NCBI GenBank assembly: GCA_902518895.1
Contig: CABYHL010000003.1
Span: 26,196-90,195 of the forward strand
From: an uncultured Alphaproteobacteria bacterium
GTDB lineage: Bacteria; Pseudomonadota; Alphaproteobacteria; HIMB59; GCA-002718135
Direction: 5' to 3'
DNA: 64,000 bases
Of the stretch, positions 5,381 to 61,261 are shown in pieces; the first letter of the stretch is position 1, and the number at the start of each line of letters is the position of its first letter. A model generated the notes under the pieces. It was not told the origin of the DNA and searched no databases. It saw nothing but the letters and a program-made list of their open reading frames with translations. The translations under genes and the position numbers were made by a program.

Positions 5381-7174
5381 ATGACTAATTCATATAAAAT
5401 TATTGATCACCATTATGACGTTGTAGTTGTAGGAGCTGGAGGTTCAGGACTGAGAGCAACGCTAGGATGTGCAGAAGCCGGATTAAAAACAGCCTGTATA
5501 TCAAAAGTGTTTCCAACAAGAAGTCATACTGTTGCAGCACAAGGTGGAATTGGAGCAGCTCTTGGTAATATGGGCGAGGATAACTGGAAGTGGCACATGT
5601 ATGATACAGTTAAGGGTTCAGACTGGCTCGGAGATCAAGATGCAATTGAATACTTATGTTCTAAAGCCCCTGAAGCAGTAATTGAACTTGAAGAATATGG
5701 CATGCCATTTAGTAGAACAGATGATGGTAAGATCTATCAAAGACCTTTTGGCGGACACTTAACCAATAATGGCGAGGGAGCTCCTGCTATGAGAGCTTGT
5801 GCAGCAGCTGATAGAACGGGACATGCTTTACTCCATACACTTTATCAGCAATCACTTAAAAATAATGTAGAATTTTATATTGAATATTTTGTTTTAGATT
5901 TAATTTCTGATGATCAAGGTAATTGCATTGGTGTGGTAACATGGTGCTTAGAAGATGGATCAATCCATCGATTTTTATCTCATCAAACAATTCTAGCTAC
6001 TGGTGGATATGGAAGAGCTTACTTCTCATCCACGAGTGCTCACATTTGTACTGGTGATGGTAGTGCAATGGCTTTAAGACAAAACCTACCTCTTTCTGAT
6101 ATGGAATTTATTCAGTTCCACCCAACAGGAGTTTACGGTGCAGGAGTGTTAATCACTGAAGGAGCAAGAGGAGAAGGTGGATATTTAACTAATAGCGATG
6201 GTGAAAGATTTATGGAAAGATATGCTCCAAATGCAAAAGATCTAGCATCAAGGGATGTAGTAAGCCGAGCAATGACTATTGAAATTAGTGAAAATAGAGG
6301 TTGTGGAGAGAATGCCGATCATGTGCTACTTCATCTTGAGCACATTGATGCTGATACACTACATAAAAGATTGCCTGGTATTTCAGAAACTGCAAAAATA
6401 TTTGCTGGAGTTGATCTGACTAAAGATCCAATACCAGTTCTTCCAACGGTTCATTATAATATGGGCGGTATACCGACAAATTATAGAACAGAAGTTCTAA
6501 GGCCAACAAATGAAAATCCAGATAATGTATGTGAAGGTTTAATGGCTGTTGGTGAGGCTGCATGCGTTTCTGTGCACGGTGCAAATAGATTAGGAACAAA
6601 TTCATTAATCGATCTTGTTGTTTTTGGCAAAGCAGCTAGCCTAACATGTAAAGAAAAAGTTAAACCAAATTCTAAAAAAATTGAAATTAGTAAATCAAAA
6701 ACAGATAATATTATTGAGCGATTTGATAAGATTAGAAACAGCAAAGGAAACTCTACAACTGGAGAACTTCGTACTTCCATGCAACATATAATGCAGCAAA
6801 AATGTGCAGTATTTAGAACACATGATCTCATATCAAAAGGTATTGAAGAATATTCAAAAGTTGAGAGCTCAATGGATGATATAGATATTAAAGACAAATC
6901 ATTAATTTTTAATACTGACTTAGTCGAAGCTTTAGAGTTACACAATTTAATGGCACAATCAAAAGTTACTCTTCATTCTGCGTTAAATCGAACTGAAAGT
7001 AGAGGCGCACATGCAAGAGAAGATTATAAAGAAAGAGATGATAATAATTGGTTAGTTCACTCTTTAGCCTGGTTAAACGATAAGGGAGATGTGAGTATGG
7101 GTTCCAGAGGTGTTCATATGAATACTCTAACTAATCATGTTCAACCAATACCACCTAAAAGAAGAGTTTACTAA
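5381..7174 (+). CDS. sdhA: Succinate dehydrogenase flavoprotein subunit
   Basis: [66 protein letters not shown]. Confidence 0.98.
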
Positions 7175-7962
7175 TGGCTCAGTTTACACTTCCTGCAAAT
7201 TCAAAAATAACTAAAGGGAAAACTCACCAACTAAAAGAACCTGCAAACGATCCAAAGAAACTTGCAATCTACAGATGGGATCCCGAAGATGATAAAAATC
7301 CTAGAATAGATAATTATGAGATAGATCAAGAAAAGTGTGGTCCAATGGTATTAGACGCACTTATGAAAATAAAAAACGAAATTGATCCAACTTTAACATT
7401 TAGAAGATCTTGCAGAGAAGGAGTTTGTGGTTCCTGTGCTATGAATATTGATGGTGTTAACACATTAGCATGTTTAAAAAGTATGTCTGATGTTAAAAAT
7501 GAAATAAAAATTTACCCTCTTCCACATATGCGTGTAGTAAAAGATTTAGTTCCAGATCTTAGTAAGGCTTATGAGCAACTGGCTTCTATTAAACCTTGGT
7601 TGCAGCGTGAAAAAACAAATGAAGAAAAAAACTCAGGAGACGAAAAAAAACAATCACCAAAAGATAGAGAAAAACTAGATGGTAAATGGGAGTGTGTATT
7701 ATGTTTTTGCTGCACTACTTCTTGTCCAAGTTATTGGTGGAATGGAGATGAATATCTAGGACCTGCAGTTCTTTTACAAGCAGCAAGATGGGTAAGTGAC
7801 TCTAGAGACTCAGAAAGAAAAGAGAGATTAAAAGCAATAAATGATTCATTAAAACTTTATAGATGTCATTCAATAATGAATTGTACTAGGTCTTGTCCTA
7901 AAGGTCTAAATCCAGCTAAAGAAATTGCTGGACTTAAAAAGGCTATTGTTACAGAATTGTAA
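7174..7962 (+). CDS. sdhB: Succinate dehydrogenase iron-sulfur subunit
   Basis: [50 protein letters not shown]. Confidence 0.98.
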
Positions 7963-55234: not shown

Positions 55235-55972
55235 ATGAGATTAAATAAAAAAAATATTATAGTTACTGCAGCTGCACAAGGTATTGGAAGAGCAACCGCT
55301 CTTAAGTTTGCAAATGAAGGGGCTAAAGTATTAGCAACTGATATTAATGAAGATAAATTAAATGATTTAAAAAACGATAATGAGAGTATCCAAACTATGA
55401 AATTGGATTCAACTAACAAAAAAGATGTAGAGGCTTTTTGTTCTTCTATAGACAAGATTGATGTTTTATTTCACGCAGTAGGTTTTGTACATCACGGAAC
55501 AATTCTTGATTGTGATGAAGATGAATTTTCACGATCAATCAATGTTAATATATTTTCTGCATATTTAATGACCTACAATCTTTTGCCAAAAATGCTGAAA
55601 GAAAAGAAAGGTAATATCGTTATTGTTTCTTCTGCTGCATCTAATGTTAAAGGTGTGCCTAATAGGTTTATTTATGGAACTACAAAAGCAGCACTAAATG
55701 GATTTGTAAAAGCTATAGCTATAGATCACATTAAAGATGGAATTCGCTGTAATGCTATTTTGCCTGGAACTGTTGAAACACCTTCATGGGAGGGAAGAGT
55801 TAACATGGCTGATGATCCTGTTAAAGCAAGATCAGATTTTATAGCAAGACAGGCAATGGGAAGATTAGCACAACCAGAAGAAATAGCATCTCTTGCAACT
55901 TATTTAGCAAGTGATGAATCAGACTTTGTTACTGGAACATTAAACTTAATTGATGGAGGATGGACTTTATAA
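55235..55972 (+). CDS. SDR oxidoreductase, 2-keto-3-deoxy-L-fuconate dehydrogenase-like
   Basis: TAAAQGIGRATALKFANEGAKV, SSAASNVKGVPNRFIYGTTKAA, RQAMGRLAQPEEIASLATYLASDESDFVTG. Confidence 0.85.
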   Translation: MRLNKKNIIVTAAAQGIGRATALKFANEGAKVLATDINEDKLNDLKNDNESIQTMKLDSTNKKDVEAFCSSIDKIDVLFHAVGFVHHGTILDCDEDEFSRSINVNIFSAYLMTYNLLPKMLKEKKGNIVIVSSAASNVKGVPNRFIYGTTKAALNGFVKAIAIDHIKDGIRCNAILPGTVETPSWEGRVNMADDPVKARSDFIARQAMGRLAQPEEIASLATYLASDESDFVTGTLNLIDGGWTL

Positions 55973-56820
55973 TGAAAACTTTAAGATACAGAATTGGAAA
56001 TGAAGTTAAACCAGGAATACTTGATCAAAAAGGAAATATTCGAGATGTGTCATCTCTAGTTAAGGATTGGGATAATAAAAATGTAACTATTAGCAAATTG
56101 AATGAAGTGAAAAAAATTGATCCTACATCTTTACCTCTAGTCGAAAACAGTGATGGATATGCACCTTGTGTTTGTAAAGAAAGTATTGGAAAATTTATTT
56201 GTATCGGCCTCAATTATTCTGATCATGCTGAAGAAACAGGTCAGAAAGTTCCACCTGAACCAATTATTTTTGCAAAAGCAACAAGTGCCGTTATTGGACC
56301 AAACGATAATGTAGAGATTCCAAAAAAATCAGTAAAGTCTGACTGGGAAGTTGAACTTGGTGTTATTATTGGAAAAGAAGCAAAATATATTTCTGAAAGC
56401 GAATCACAATCTCATATTGCTGGATACTGTGTCATCAATGATCTCAGCGAAAGAGAATTTCAAATAGAACATTCCGGCCAATGGGTTAAAGGAAAGTCTT
56501 GTGACACTTTTGGTCCAATCGGACCATATTTGGTTACTACTGATGAGGTACCAGATCCTCAAAACTTAAAAATGTGGCTTGATGTTAATGGTAAAAGAAT
56601 GCAAGATGGATCAACAAGCACCATGGTTTACGGCGTAAACTTTTTAATAAGTTACTTAAGTCAATTTATGTCATTACAACCTGGAGATATCATTTCAACA
56701 GGCACACCCCCAGGAGTTGGAATGGGAATGAAACCACAAGTGTTTTTAAAAGCAGGTGATGAAATGAAACTTGGTATTGAGGGTCTGGGAGAACAAACTC
56801 AAAAAACCATTCAGGCGTAA
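55972..56820 (+). CDS. FAH-family hydrolase, 2,4-diketo-3-deoxy-L-fuconate hydrolase/ureidoglycolate lyase-like
   Basis: CIGLNYSDHAEETG, DWEVELGVIIGKEAKYI, KSCDTFGPIGPYLVT, PGDIISTGTPPGVGMGMKP. Confidence 0.88.
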   Translation: MKTLRYRIGNEVKPGILDQKGNIRDVSSLVKDWDNKNVTISKLNEVKKIDPTSLPLVENSDGYAPCVCKESIGKFICIGLNYSDHAEETGQKVPPEPIIFAKATSAVIGPNDNVEIPKKSVKSDWEVELGVIIGKEAKYISESESQSHIAGYCVINDLSEREFQIEHSGQWVKGKSCDTFGPIGPYLVTTDEVPDPQNLKMWLDVNGKRMQDGSTSTMVYGVNFLISYLSQFMSLQPGDIISTGTPPGVGMGMKPQVFLKAGDEMKLGIEGLGEQTQKTIQA

Positions 56821-57974
56821 TGTTTGGCAATATCAATAATTGTCATAACGTTAAAGATTTTAGAAACTTGGCAAAAAAAAGACTACCTAGTCCAATATTC
56901 CATTACATTGATGGTGCTGCTGATGATGAGATAACTTATAAAAGAAATACTGATGCCTATGAGCAATGTGATTTAATTCCAAATGTTTTAAGCGGTGTTG
57001 ATAAAGTTGATATGTCAACTACGGTAATGGGACAAAAGTTAGATATGCCTTTGTATTGTGCACCAACCGCTCTTCAAAGATTATTTCATCATGAAGGTGA
57101 GATTGGAGTTGCAAAAGCTGCAGAAAAATTTGGAACTATGTTTGGAATTTCTTCTTTAGGGACAGCCAGTATTGAAGAAATATCAAATTTAGTAAAAACA
57201 CCTAAATTATTTCAACTCTATGTTCACAAAGACAAAGGACTAAATAAAGCTCTTATAGAAAGATGTAAGGAATCAAATTTTGAAGCAATGGCTGTTACTG
57301 TAGATACTGCTGTTGGAGGTAACCGTGAAAGAGATTTGTATACAGGTTTTACTATTCCAATGAAATTAAAACTCAATAGTATTCTAAGTTTTATACTCCA
57401 TCCAAAGTGGGCAGTAGATTATTTTACAAAACCAAAATGGGAATTAAGTAATCTAAAGGATCATATTAATGAAGGCACAACAGTAATGACAACCATAGGA
57501 GATTACTTCACAAAAATGCTTGATAACTCCATGAGTTGGAAAGATGTAGAAAATATTAATAAAGAGTGGGGACGTCAATTTGCAATTAAAGGGGTAATGT
57601 CTGTAGATGATGCAAAAAAAGCAGTCGACGTGGGTGCCTCCGCTATAATGGTTTCAAATCATGGAGGACGACAGTTAGATGGATCAAGATCACCATTCGA
57701 TCAATTAGCTGAAATTGTAGATGCTGTGGGTGATAAAATAGATGTAATATGTGAAGGAGGTATCAGAAGAGGTACTCATGTTTTAAAAGCATTGTCTCTT
57801 GGTGCAAAAGCTTGTTCCGGTGGAAGAATGTATTTATATGCTTTAGCAGCGGGTGGTCAAAAAGGTGTTGAAAAAAGCTTGTCTAATCTTCACAATGAAA
57901 TTGAGAGAGACATGAAATTAATGGGAGTTTCCAACATAAAAGAATTAACAAGAAAAAATCTAAAATTCAGATAA
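56820..57974 (+). CDS. FMN-dependent alpha-hydroxy acid dehydrogenase (LldD-like)
   Basis: FHYIDGAADDEITYKRN, LYCAPTALQRLFHHEGE, VSNHGGRQLDGSRSPFDQL, EGGIRRGTHVLKALSLGAKACSGG. Confidence 0.9.
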   Translation: MFGNINNCHNVKDFRNLAKKRLPSPIFHYIDGAADDEITYKRNTDAYEQCDLIPNVLSGVDKVDMSTTVMGQKLDMPLYCAPTALQRLFHHEGEIGVAKAAEKFGTMFGISSLGTASIEEISNLVKTPKLFQLYVHKDKGLNKALIERCKESNFEAMAVTVDTAVGGNRERDLYTGFTIPMKLKLNSILSFILHPKWAVDYFTKPKWELSNLKDHINEGTTVMTTIGDYFTKMLDNSMSWKDVENINKEWGRQFAIKGVMSVDDAKKAVDVGASAIMVSNHGGRQLDGSRSPFDQLAEIVDAVGDKIDVICEGGIRRGTHVLKALSLGAKACSGGRMYLYALAAGGQKGVEKSLSNLHNEIERDMKLMGVSNIKELTRKNLKFR

Positions 57975-58034: not shown

Positions 58035-58355
58035 ATGAATGATGAAATTGATCCAATACTAGTTGGTGAAACTGACGATATTGAGGTTGGAACTGTGGAG
58101 AGTTTTGAACATGACGATGTTAATTATGCAGTTTATCATTTAGAGTCAGGTTTTTTTTGTACACAGGGAAACTGTAATTGCGAGGAAAAAGCACCTTTAA
58201 GTGAATCTGAAATTGAGGGAGAAGAGTTAGAATGTGTTGGTTGTGGCAATACATATAGTATCGTTTCAGGTGATTGTATTAGTGATCCTGAATTGGACGG
58301 TCTTAAGATCTTTGATATATCCGAAGAGGATGGAAATATTTACTTAAATATCTAA
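58035..58355 (+). CDS. Rieske-fold-like protein with Cys4 instead of Cys2His2 ligands
   Basis: VNYAVYHLESGFFCTQGNCNCEEKAPLSESEIEGEELECVGCGNTYSIVSGD aligns by eye to Rieske ferredoxins with CxH to CNC and CxxH to CVGC. Confidence 0.7.
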   Translation: MNDEIDPILVGETDDIEVGTVESFEHDDVNYAVYHLESGFFCTQGNCNCEEKAPLSESEIEGEELECVGCGNTYSIVSGDCISDPELDGLKIFDISEEDGNIYLNI

Positions 58356-59317
58356 CTGATAATATTAAGATTTATAATATTATTTTTGTTTAAATTTTTA
58401 CTTTTAGTCAAAAAATTAAAAACATTTTCACAAGACTCAATCGCCATTCTTTTCCTACATTCTAATGTTAATGCTGAATTATGAGGAGTTAACAAAGTAT
58501 TTTGTAATGAAAATAATTTGTGGTTATTTATTGGAGGTTCAATTTCAAAAACATCTAATCCCGCAGCAAAAATTTTTTTGTTTTTTAAAGCATCATATAA
58601 TGCATCTTCATTAACAATCCCACCACGAGCAGAATTAATAAGAATTAAATTTGATTTACAAATTTTAAATGAATTATAGGAAATCAAATCTTTAGTATTT
58701 TTATTTAAAGGCAAATGAATACTAATATAATCGGCAATTTTAAAACCCCTTTCCTTTTCTATTGGAATATAATTTAATTTTATTATTTCATCATTAGAGA
58801 CAAAAGGATCATGAATGTAAACTTCCATATCAAAAGCTAAACATCTTTTAGCTAAAGCTTTTCCAATTCTACCAAAACCTAAAATCAAAATTTTTTTTTG
58901 ATATAATTCAAAAAAATTAGGAAGTTTAGCTTTTTCTTTAAATTTATTATTTTTGACTAATTTATCTGATTCAAAAATATTTTTAGTCAAACAGAGCATC
59001 ATTGTCATTACATGCTCAGAAACACTAACTGAATTAGCTGTACCAGTTATTGCTAAAGCAATTTTATTTTCATTCAAAAAATTAGTATCAACATTGTCGT
59101 AACCAACACCATGCCTAGCTACAACTTTTAAGTTTTTTGCATTAGATAGAATGTTTTTGTTTAATTTCACTGTCCTAACAACAATGCCATCCACATCTTT
59201 TAATTCTTCTTTAAGCTGCTTCTCTTCCTTGTTTTCTGTAACAAAATACTCGATATTATTTTTCTCAAAAATTTCGAACCCACTTTTATGAATCTCTCCA
59301 ACAACTCCAACTTTCAT
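58352..59317 (-). CDS. D-2-hydroxyacid dehydrogenase (SerA-like family)
   Basis: VVARHGVGYDNVD, ILGFGRIGKALAKR, NSARGGIVNEDALYDAL, GLDVFEIEPP. Confidence 0.9.
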   Translation of the reverse strand: MKVGVVGEIHKSGFEIFEKNNIEYFVTENKEEKQLKEELKDVDGIVVRTVKLNKNILSNAKNLKVVARHGVGYDNVDTNFLNENKIALAITGTANSVSVSEHVMTMMLCLTKNIFESDKLVKNNKFKEKAKLPNFFELYQKKILILGFGRIGKALAKRCLAFDMEVYIHDPFVSNDEIIKLNYIPIEKERGFKIADYISIHLPLNKNTKDLISYNSFKICKSNLILINSARGGIVNEDALYDALKNKKIFAAGLDVFEIEPPINNHKLFSLQNTLLTPHNSALTLECRKRMAIESCENVFNFLTKSKNLNKNNIINLNIIS

Positions 59318-59401: not shown

Positions 59402-61261
59402 TTGGGAAAGGTACCTATGAAAACAGTTAGAATGTCATGTTCACATGCATTAATTAAATATTTAACAATGCAAAAAATTTTAATTAATAAAAAAAAAGAA
59501 CCTCTTTTTCCAGGCGCATTCGGTATTTATGGCCATGGTAATGTTGCTTGTATTGGACAAGCTATGGAAGAATATCAGAATGAACTTCCAGGATATAGGG
59601 GGCATCACGAACAAAATATGGCATTGACTGGTATTGCATACGCACGTGCAAAAAGAAGACAACAAATATTTGTTGCAACTTCATCTGTTGGACCGGGTTC
59701 TACTAATATGGTTACAGCTGCTGCAGTTGCATTAAGCAATAGACTTCCAATTTTACTTCTACCAGGAGATACATTTTCTAGTCGTTTTCCAGACCCTGTT
59801 TTACAACAAGTAGAACATTTTAACTCTCCTTCAGAAACTCAAAATGATTCATTTAAATCTGTATCAAGGTATTTTGATCGAATTACTAGACCTGAACAAA
59901 TTTTAACATCTTTACCACAAGCAATTAATGTAATGCTTGATCCTGCAGACTGTGGCCCAGCAGTAATTTCTATGTCGCAAGATGTTCAAGGAGAAGCGTA
60001 TGATTATCCTGAAATCTTTTTTGAAGAAAAAATTCATGAAATTAGAAGAATTCACCCTGATCCAAATCAAATACAAAAGGCAGCTGATAAATTAAAACAA
60101 TCTAAACAACCAATTATTATTTCAGGTGGAGGTGTTTTATATTCAGAAGCAGAAGAGGAGATTTCTGCTTTTGCAAAAAAACATAATATTCCTGTAACAG
60201 CAACTGTGATGGGTATTGGTTGTATGAATAAAGATGATCCTTATTATATTAGTGCAATTGGATGCTTAGGAGAAGGCTCATCTAATAACCTTGCTACTGA
60301 TACAGATTTAGCACTAGCTGTAGGAACAAAGTTAGGAGACTTTACAACTGGCTCTTGGACTAATTTTGAAAATGAAAATTTTCAACTTGTATCAATAAAC
60401 ACTTCACGATTTGATACTACAAAACATCGCGCAACTCCTGTAGTCAGTGATGCAAAAATTGGACTTCAAGAATTATCAAAAGCATTAGGAGATTGGAAAG
60501 CACCAGATAATTGGTACCAGCGTTCAATTGAGGAAAGAAATAAATGGGATGAATATGTTGCCAAAGAAAGTGGACCAACAAACCAAGAATTGCCTTCCTA
60601 TGCTCATGCTGTAGGTGCAGTCTATAGAAATTCAGACCCATCAGATATTGTAGTAACTGCAGCTGGAGGTTTAGTTGGTGAAGTGGTTCAAATATGGAAA
60701 CCTAAAGAACTAAATACTTTTGAAACTGAATGGGGATTTAGTTGTATGAGCTATGAAATATCAGGAGCACTTGGAATCAAAATGGCAAAACCTAAACAAG
60801 ATGTAATTGTATTTGTTGGTGATGGTTCATACCTCTTACAAAATAGCGACATCTACAGTTCAGTTTTATATGATAAAAAATTAATTATAGTTGTTTGTGA
60901 TAATGGTGGTCACATGGTTATTAATAGATTGCAACTAGCAAAAGGTGGGAATGAATATCTTTGCAATCTTAATGCTGCAAGAGCAACGAATATACAGTTT
61001 GTTGATTTTGAAGCTCACGCAAAAAGTATGGGGGCAAATGGTGAGACTGTTAAATCTATTTCAGAGTTAGAGGCCGCTTTCAAAAGAGCAAAAGAATCAG
61101 ACAAAACATATGTTATTTCTATGAAAACAGATGGGTATGAATGGTTAGAGGGGACAGCTTTCTGGGAAAGCCCAACACTCGAAGTAGATAATACCGAAGG
61201 TAAGAAATCAGCTCTTAATGAATTTTTAGAAGGAAAAAATAAACAACGTAAGGGCGTATAA
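59402..61261 (+). CDS. iolD: ThDP-dependent enzyme, trihydroxycyclohexane-1,2-dione hydrolase-like
   Basis: GAFGIYGHGNVACIGQAM, GHHEQNMALTGIAYARA, TSSVGPGSTNMVTAAAVA, FVGDGSYLLQNSD ThDP motif. Confidence 0.85.
   Translation: MGKVPMKTVRMSCSHALIKYLTMQKILINKKKEPLFPGAFGIYGHGNVACIGQAMEEYQNELPGYRGHHEQNMALTGIAYARAKRRQQIFVATSSVGPGSTNMVTAAAVALSNRLPILLLPGDTFSSRFPDPVLQQVEHFNSPSETQNDSFKSVSRYFDRITRPEQILTSLPQAINVMLDPADCGPAVISMSQDVQGEAYDYPEIFFEEKIHEIRRIHPDPNQIQKAADKLKQSKQPIIISGGGVLYSEAEEEISAFAKKHNIPVTATVMGIGCMNKDDPYYISAIGCLGEGSSNNLATDTDLALAVGTKLGDFTTGSWTNFENENFQLVSINTSRFDTTKHRATPVVSDAKIGLQELSKALGDWKAPDNWYQRSIEERNKWDEYVAKESGPTNQELPSYAHAVGAVYRNSDPSDIVVTAAGGLVGEVVQIWKPKELNTFETEWGFSCMSYEISGALGIKMAKPKQDVIVFVGDGSYLLQNSDIYSSVLYDKKLIIVVCDNGGHMVINRLQLAKGGNEYLCNLNAARATNIQFVDFEAHAKSMGANGETVKSISELEAAFKRAKESDKTYVISMKTDGYEWLEGTAFWESPTLEVDNTEGKKSALNEFLEGKNKQRKGV

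Follow-up and report, generated by a model that had tools for sequence, protein, structure and literature searches.

A natural Rieske-fold protein with four conserved cysteines at the ligand positions, encoded in a candidate L-fuconate operon of marine alphaproteobacteria

A 64,000-nucleotide stretch of alphaproteobacterial DNA (the window) encodes RSK, a tetra-cysteine protein that is a Rieske protein by fold and profile but lacks the ligand set that defines the family. As far as could be found, an all-Cys Rieske ligand set had previously been described only in engineered proteins, and a literature search over open-licence papers, in which several queries were narrow, returned no published natural example. 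In the explanation that best joins the evidence, to which a probability of roughly 45% is assigned, a MocE-type Rieske ferredoxin would have acquired a four-cysteine metal site (CxC + CxxC) in the ancestor of one marine alphaproteobacterial family, and the Cys4 protein would then have been fixed as the last gene of an operon leading from L-fuconate to pyruvate and L-lactate. Metal would be bound through C47, C49, C67 and C70, and RSK would carry electrons for this catabolic operon as a small soluble protein of strongly acidic character, most likely receiving them from LldD. The gene and its two ligand loops are located as follows.

58035..58355, plus strand: RSK, tetra-cysteine Rieske-fold protein of 106 aa (Pfam, phmmer, AlphaFold/Foldseek, orthologues)
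58173..58181, plus strand: first ligand loop, C47-N48-C49 (TGT AAT TGC), canonically CxH; both cysteines invariant in orthologues
58233..58247, plus strand: second ligand loop, C67-V-G-C70-G71, canonically CPxHG

Coordinates, strand and amino acid sequence of RSK were correct in the original prediction, and its reading of CNC and CVGC in place of CxH and CxxH was confirmed directly at the codon level (C47, TGT, 58173-58175; C49, TGC, 58179-58181; C67, TGT, 58233-58235; C70, TGT, 58242-58244). Comparison with Pfam placed RSK above the gathering cut-off of the Rieske family (PF00355; 26.8 bits, E 4.8e-6, cut-off 20.3). Nothing else was obtained from Pfam besides a sub-threshold match to Trm112p (zinc); the rubredoxin profile was absent, and no Bfd or Hsp33 profile was matched even with an E threshold of 10, as far as HMMER's filters allow. 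The nearest NCBIfam model was the MocE family ferredoxin (TIGR02377), for which RSK scored 35.7, below the cut-off of 136.15. A phmmer search of the PDB returned the dioxygenase ferredoxin CarAc (E 1.7e-6), whose first cysteine aligns with C47 and whose CPFHG aligns with CVGCG, and this match improved to 9e-9 when a profile of RSK orthologues was used. An AlphaFold model of RSK was built with 41 orthologues as input (mean pLDDT 85.8, pTM 0.72), and its top Foldseek matches in the PDB were Rieske ferredoxins (TM 0.80-0.85, rmsd about 2 Å). According to this model RSK has a Rieske fold. The earlier proposal of such a fold with both histidine ligands lost is in agreement with the Pfam profile, the structure model and the orthologues, and neither outcome that it had named as contrary to it was seen.

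RSK shares its length, fold, sequence pattern and loop positions with the Rieske ferredoxins of the MocE family and of dioxygenases (TIGR02377, PF00355; CarAc, BphA3), but it differs from them in having cysteine for histidine, a spacer longer by one residue and no adjoining reductase or oxygenase. Counting from the first inner cysteine to the second gives 19 steps in the canonical paralogue (CTHEAVHLEDGLVMDDEIEC) versus 20 in RSK. Because of this longer spacer, aligners place a gap beside the first motif, and C49 was assigned as a ligand position by the CxC/CxH register, not via ungapped alignment. The additional residue falls between C47 and A53, which argues that the loop was rebuilt beyond a swap of two side chains.

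To define conservation, 113 RSK loci from relatives and species genomes were used, some of which represent the same contig reached twice, and these yielded 64 distinct proteins with 61-99% identity. C47, C49, C67 and C70 are kept in 64/64 with constant spacing (CxC-17 residues-CxxC), and neither the CxH...CxxH set of the asymmetric [2Fe-2S] cluster nor any canonical histidine occurs, so that the invariance of all four cysteines could be upheld. The residue inside CxC varies (N, P, H, Y, T, S, V, A, L, F), as do those inside CxxC (VG, AS, PS, PT and others), and the second loop of many orthologues reads CP[ST]CG, which resembles a rubredoxin or zinc knuckle. The four ligand-position cysteines are the only ones in 39/62 sequences, and likewise in orthologues of the L010 type (CPC/CPTC), and of the six cysteines of RSK itself, C42 and C81 are not conserved. 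Retention of the pattern in 64 distinct sequences excludes chance. Values of dN/dS were about 0.03 for closely related sequences and reached 0.26 in more distant pairs, where synonymous sites are often saturated; RSK is under strong purifying selection, with the four cysteines at its centre. A pseudogene is ruled out by these values and by the intact open reading frames; a sequencing error or one-genome oddity is likewise ruled out, as orthologues are present in dozens of independent single-cell genomes. The two extra cysteines (C42, 58158-58160; C81, 58275-58277) are confined to one subclade, in which C42 never appears without C81, whereas L068, L071 and L072 have C81 without C42, and the pair is possibly a disulfide acquired later.

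A second feature of RSK is its acidity. With a net charge of about -26 and a pI of about 4, it is the most acidic per residue among the 61 ORFs of the window, by a factor of 3.6, and its orthologues carry net charges of -19 to -28. As a rule, small acidic proteins that descend from ferredoxins carry electrons. Acidity and ferredoxin descent together favour this role, and RSK is probably a tetra-cysteine metal protein that acts as a small electron carrier.

Within the order, all strong RSK matches (E 1.7e-50 or better) fall in the family of the window, where they span five genera. The next matches (E 2.5e-20 and weaker) represent a paralogue, also present in the window's genus, whose copies (those read were L030-L040, L044 and L142) carry canonical CTH...CPMH and which scores 134.8 against TIGR02377 (cut-off 136.15). 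No Cys4 Rieske protein was detected elsewhere when 387 genomes of the class and 399 of the phylum were searched with profiles, and all homologues that could be read were canonical Cys2His2. The DNA pattern CxC...ECPxCG, which samples only some of the possible motifs and does not reach RSK's own CVGC, gave zero Rieske-like ORFs in the 399 genomes. A plasmid collection contained four MocE-type matches by overall identity (about 31-34%), and no RSK-like Cys4 Rieske protein was found in viral contigs. Among the homologues whose motifs were read, the Cys4 form occurs in a single family of marine alphaproteobacteria and nowhere else. A 64-row tree groups the Cys4 proteins as one clade (support 100/100) within canonical MocE-like proteins of the Cys2His2 type, and the stem leading to this clade is long (2.0 changes per site). 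The simplest account of this single clade on a long stem would be that the His-to-Cys change arose once, with large divergence. The canonical MocE paralogue adjoins its own HcaD-like ferredoxin reductase (L031:2440-4068, 5823-7844), and two nearby fatty-acid enzymes, a hydroxylase and a desaturase, are possible partners.

The genomic context of RSK in the window comprises three genes upstream and two downstream.

55235..55972, plus strand: SDR, FucF-like (L-2-keto-3-deoxyfuconate 4-dehydrogenase) candidate (structure matches; L148 context)
55960..56820, plus strand: FAH-family hydrolase, FucG/LRA6-like (L-2,4-diketo-3-deoxy-fuconate/rhamnonate hydrolase; PDB 8gsr, E 2e-86)
56820..57974, plus strand: LldD-like protein of the FMN-dependent L-lactate/alpha-hydroxy-acid dehydrogenase family, 384 aa (profile/structure family match)
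58352..59317, minus strand: 2-hydroxyacid dehydrogenase (PGDH-like), convergent with RSK with a 4 bp overlap; context only
59417..61261, plus strand: IolD (inositol catabolism; TIGR04377, 769 bits against a cut-off of 715); context only

The original prediction had set RSK beside an alpha-hydroxy-acid dehydrogenase and an IolD-like gene. The former does adjoin it, as LldD lies upstream across a gap of 60 bp, but IolD is not immediately adjacent: the 2-hydroxyacid dehydrogenase on the other strand lies between. The nearest solved structure to FAH is L-2,4-diketo-3-deoxyrhamnonate hydrolase (8gsr), and SDR matches several SDR structures, of which 2ag5 is the best (E 5e-85). The order SDR-FAH-LldD-RSK was found at almost every locus of sufficient length, and in other genera. 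At locus L148, which belongs to a different genus, the gene directly upstream of SDR encodes an enolase resembling L-fuconate dehydratase (2hne, E 9e-138). The lower pathway of non-phosphorylating L-fucose/L-rhamnose breakdown (dehydratase, SDR as 4-dehydrogenase, FAH as diketo hydrolase) is represented by the SDR and FAH candidates in the window and by the dehydratase in L148, with a likely counterpart in G041/L184. A published non-phosphorylating route ends in pyruvate and L-lactate (PMC11199699). From the resemblance of FAH and SDR, the dehydratase in L148 and the family of LldD, the operon reads as a route from L-fuconate (or L-rhamnonate) to pyruvate and L-lactate, followed by conversion of L-lactate to pyruvate, and LldD should oxidise the L-lactate made by the pathway. 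A promoter and terminator scan gave sites no commoner than in shuffles. Elsewhere in the window genome, a galactarate-dehydratase-like protein (L178:9268-10770, G000 contig C1; TIGR03248, 379.7 bits, under the cut-off) is surrounded by sugar dehydrogenases, and at L120 a relative of it is found close to an SDR-FAH-RSK operon, beside an aldo/keto reductase. The genus may use this protein as its fuconate dehydratase.

That RSK accepts electrons from the adjacent hydroxy-acid oxidation, as had been proposed, is plausible, and the order FAH-LldD-RSK, near-universal in the family, speaks for it. Against it, RSK directly follows FAH in G510 (L120), and no LldD was found in this 91%-complete genome, while LldD is present without RSK in G037, G038, G039, G042, G509 and G516. 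An obligate partnership with LldD is therefore not supported. In G041, from a sister family, a dehydratase-like gene, SDR, FAH and LldD are followed by unrelated genes and RSK is absent. The corresponding locus (L184, contig C4) consists of CoA-transferase-like, enolase-superfamily-like, L-fuconate-dehydratase-like, SDR, FAH and LldD genes, named by resemblance to L148, and this operon without a Cys4 protein provides a natural control for the necessity of RSK. Taken together, RSK tracks FAH better than LldD within its family and is not needed everywhere for the pathway. Eight members of the genus without RSK are also without LldD and FAH, as expected if the locus is missing from incomplete assemblies. 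LldD of the window is basic (pI 8.5). In LldD and mandelate dehydrogenases, one region serves membrane/quinone contact; the window LldD has this region and may therefore need no soluble acceptor.

The loops of Rieske, rubredoxin and zinc-ribbon sites are related in geometry, and mutagenesis has been used to explore how one site can be turned into another. The engineered variants of S. solfataricus ARF (Iwasaki and colleagues, reviewed in PMC2946596) follow the idea seen in RSK, cysteine for both histidines on a Rieske scaffold. The single H64C variant holds a low-potential [2Fe-2S] cluster with three Cys and one His ligand, H44C fails, cluster assembly in H44C/H64C is largely impaired, and the triple mutant (H44I/K45C/H64C) was described as an Rd-like mononuclear (Fe/Zn) centre (PMC2946596). 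The CxC + CxxC spacing within the loops of H44C/H64C equals that of RSK, whose spacer between the loops is longer by one residue, whereas the mononuclear site could be engineered only with CxxC in loop 1, where RSK has CxC. RSK is natural and conserved, in contrast to the poorly assembling double mutant. Since the double replacement largely abolished cluster assembly in ARF, the natural protein directly tests the interconversion of Rieske and rubredoxin sites, and its conservation suggests that evolution reached a working solution with a longer spacer and a very acidic surface. Four cysteines and a CPxCG-like second loop are common to rubredoxins, zinc ribbons and many RSK orthologues, but rubredoxin has two CxxCG knuckles, and RSK with its CxC first loop and Rieske fold does not qualify as one. 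Bfd binds a [2Fe-2S] cluster with CxC...CxxC. Hsp33 binds zinc by a CxC + CxxC pair (PMC7423844). Both pairs are like that of RSK, with different folds and spacing. For the metal of RSK, mononuclear Fe or Zn is predicted with about even odds and is placed slightly ahead of an all-Cys [2Fe-2S] cluster, as cysteine is shorter than histidine and the second loop is CPxCG-knuckle-like; the cluster is a tentative candidate, and no metal or another cofactor would be improbable. With RSK, it becomes possible to test directly what metal is taken up by a Rieske scaffold carrying four cysteines, and to what extent the cofactor depends on the identity of the ligands alone.

The main rival to the electron-carrier reading, which we judge somewhat unlikely, is that the four cysteines hold Zn(II) in the manner of a zinc ribbon or Hsp33, and that RSK partners the operon enzymes in a structural or regulatory capacity or acts on them as a thiol redox switch. 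The zinc site of Hsp33 (PMC7423844), the frequent CP[ST]CG second loop, the weak sub-threshold Trm112p match and the mononuclear (Fe/Zn) centre of the ARF triple mutant (PMC2946596) are all consistent with zinc, but the extreme acidity and electron-carrier descent of RSK favour a redox role, and no partner or target is indicated. It is doubtful that RSK represents a natural conversion from Rieske to rubredoxin, with all-Cys mononuclear Fe (or [2Fe-2S]) acting as a dedicated low-potential acceptor for L-lactate oxidation in fucose catabolism.

An all-Cys [2Fe-2S] ferredoxin serving an oxygenase, hydroxylase or desaturase, and reduced by the HcaD-like reductase next to the MocE paralogue, would fit the dioxygenase ferredoxin fold of the model, the Bfd precedent and the presence in the genus of that reductase in the vicinity of a fatty-acid hydroxylase and desaturase. 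The ARF single variant H64C retained [2Fe-2S], but H44C/H64C largely failed in cluster assembly (PMC2946596). No reductase or oxygenase is present in the RSK operon, and the role is already filled by the canonical paralogue, which makes this alternative improbable. A degenerate, metal-free Rieske protein comparable to a NirD-like structural subunit is very improbable. Foldseek matches of RSK do include 3c0d and 4aiv, which we take to be NirD-type Rieske-fold proteins without a cluster, but loss of ligand function would let the cysteines drift, and the four are invariant at fixed spacing in divergent orthologues while other cysteines come and go. The preferred reading of an electron carrier with a Cys4 metal site, like its zinc rival, would mean that the sugar catabolism of an abundant marine clade involves a redox or zinc protein not recognised before.

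The convergent 2-hydroxyacid dehydrogenase (HADH1) is missing from this position in L106 and L115, and in close strains (loci L045-L124) RSK and HADH1 diverge independently: RSK identity of 99% is found with HADH1 at 76%, and RSK at 72% with HADH1 at 87-94%. LldD, FAH and IolD are near 95-99% in many of those strains. These identities suggest recombination or allele exchange at the RSK/HADH1 junction.
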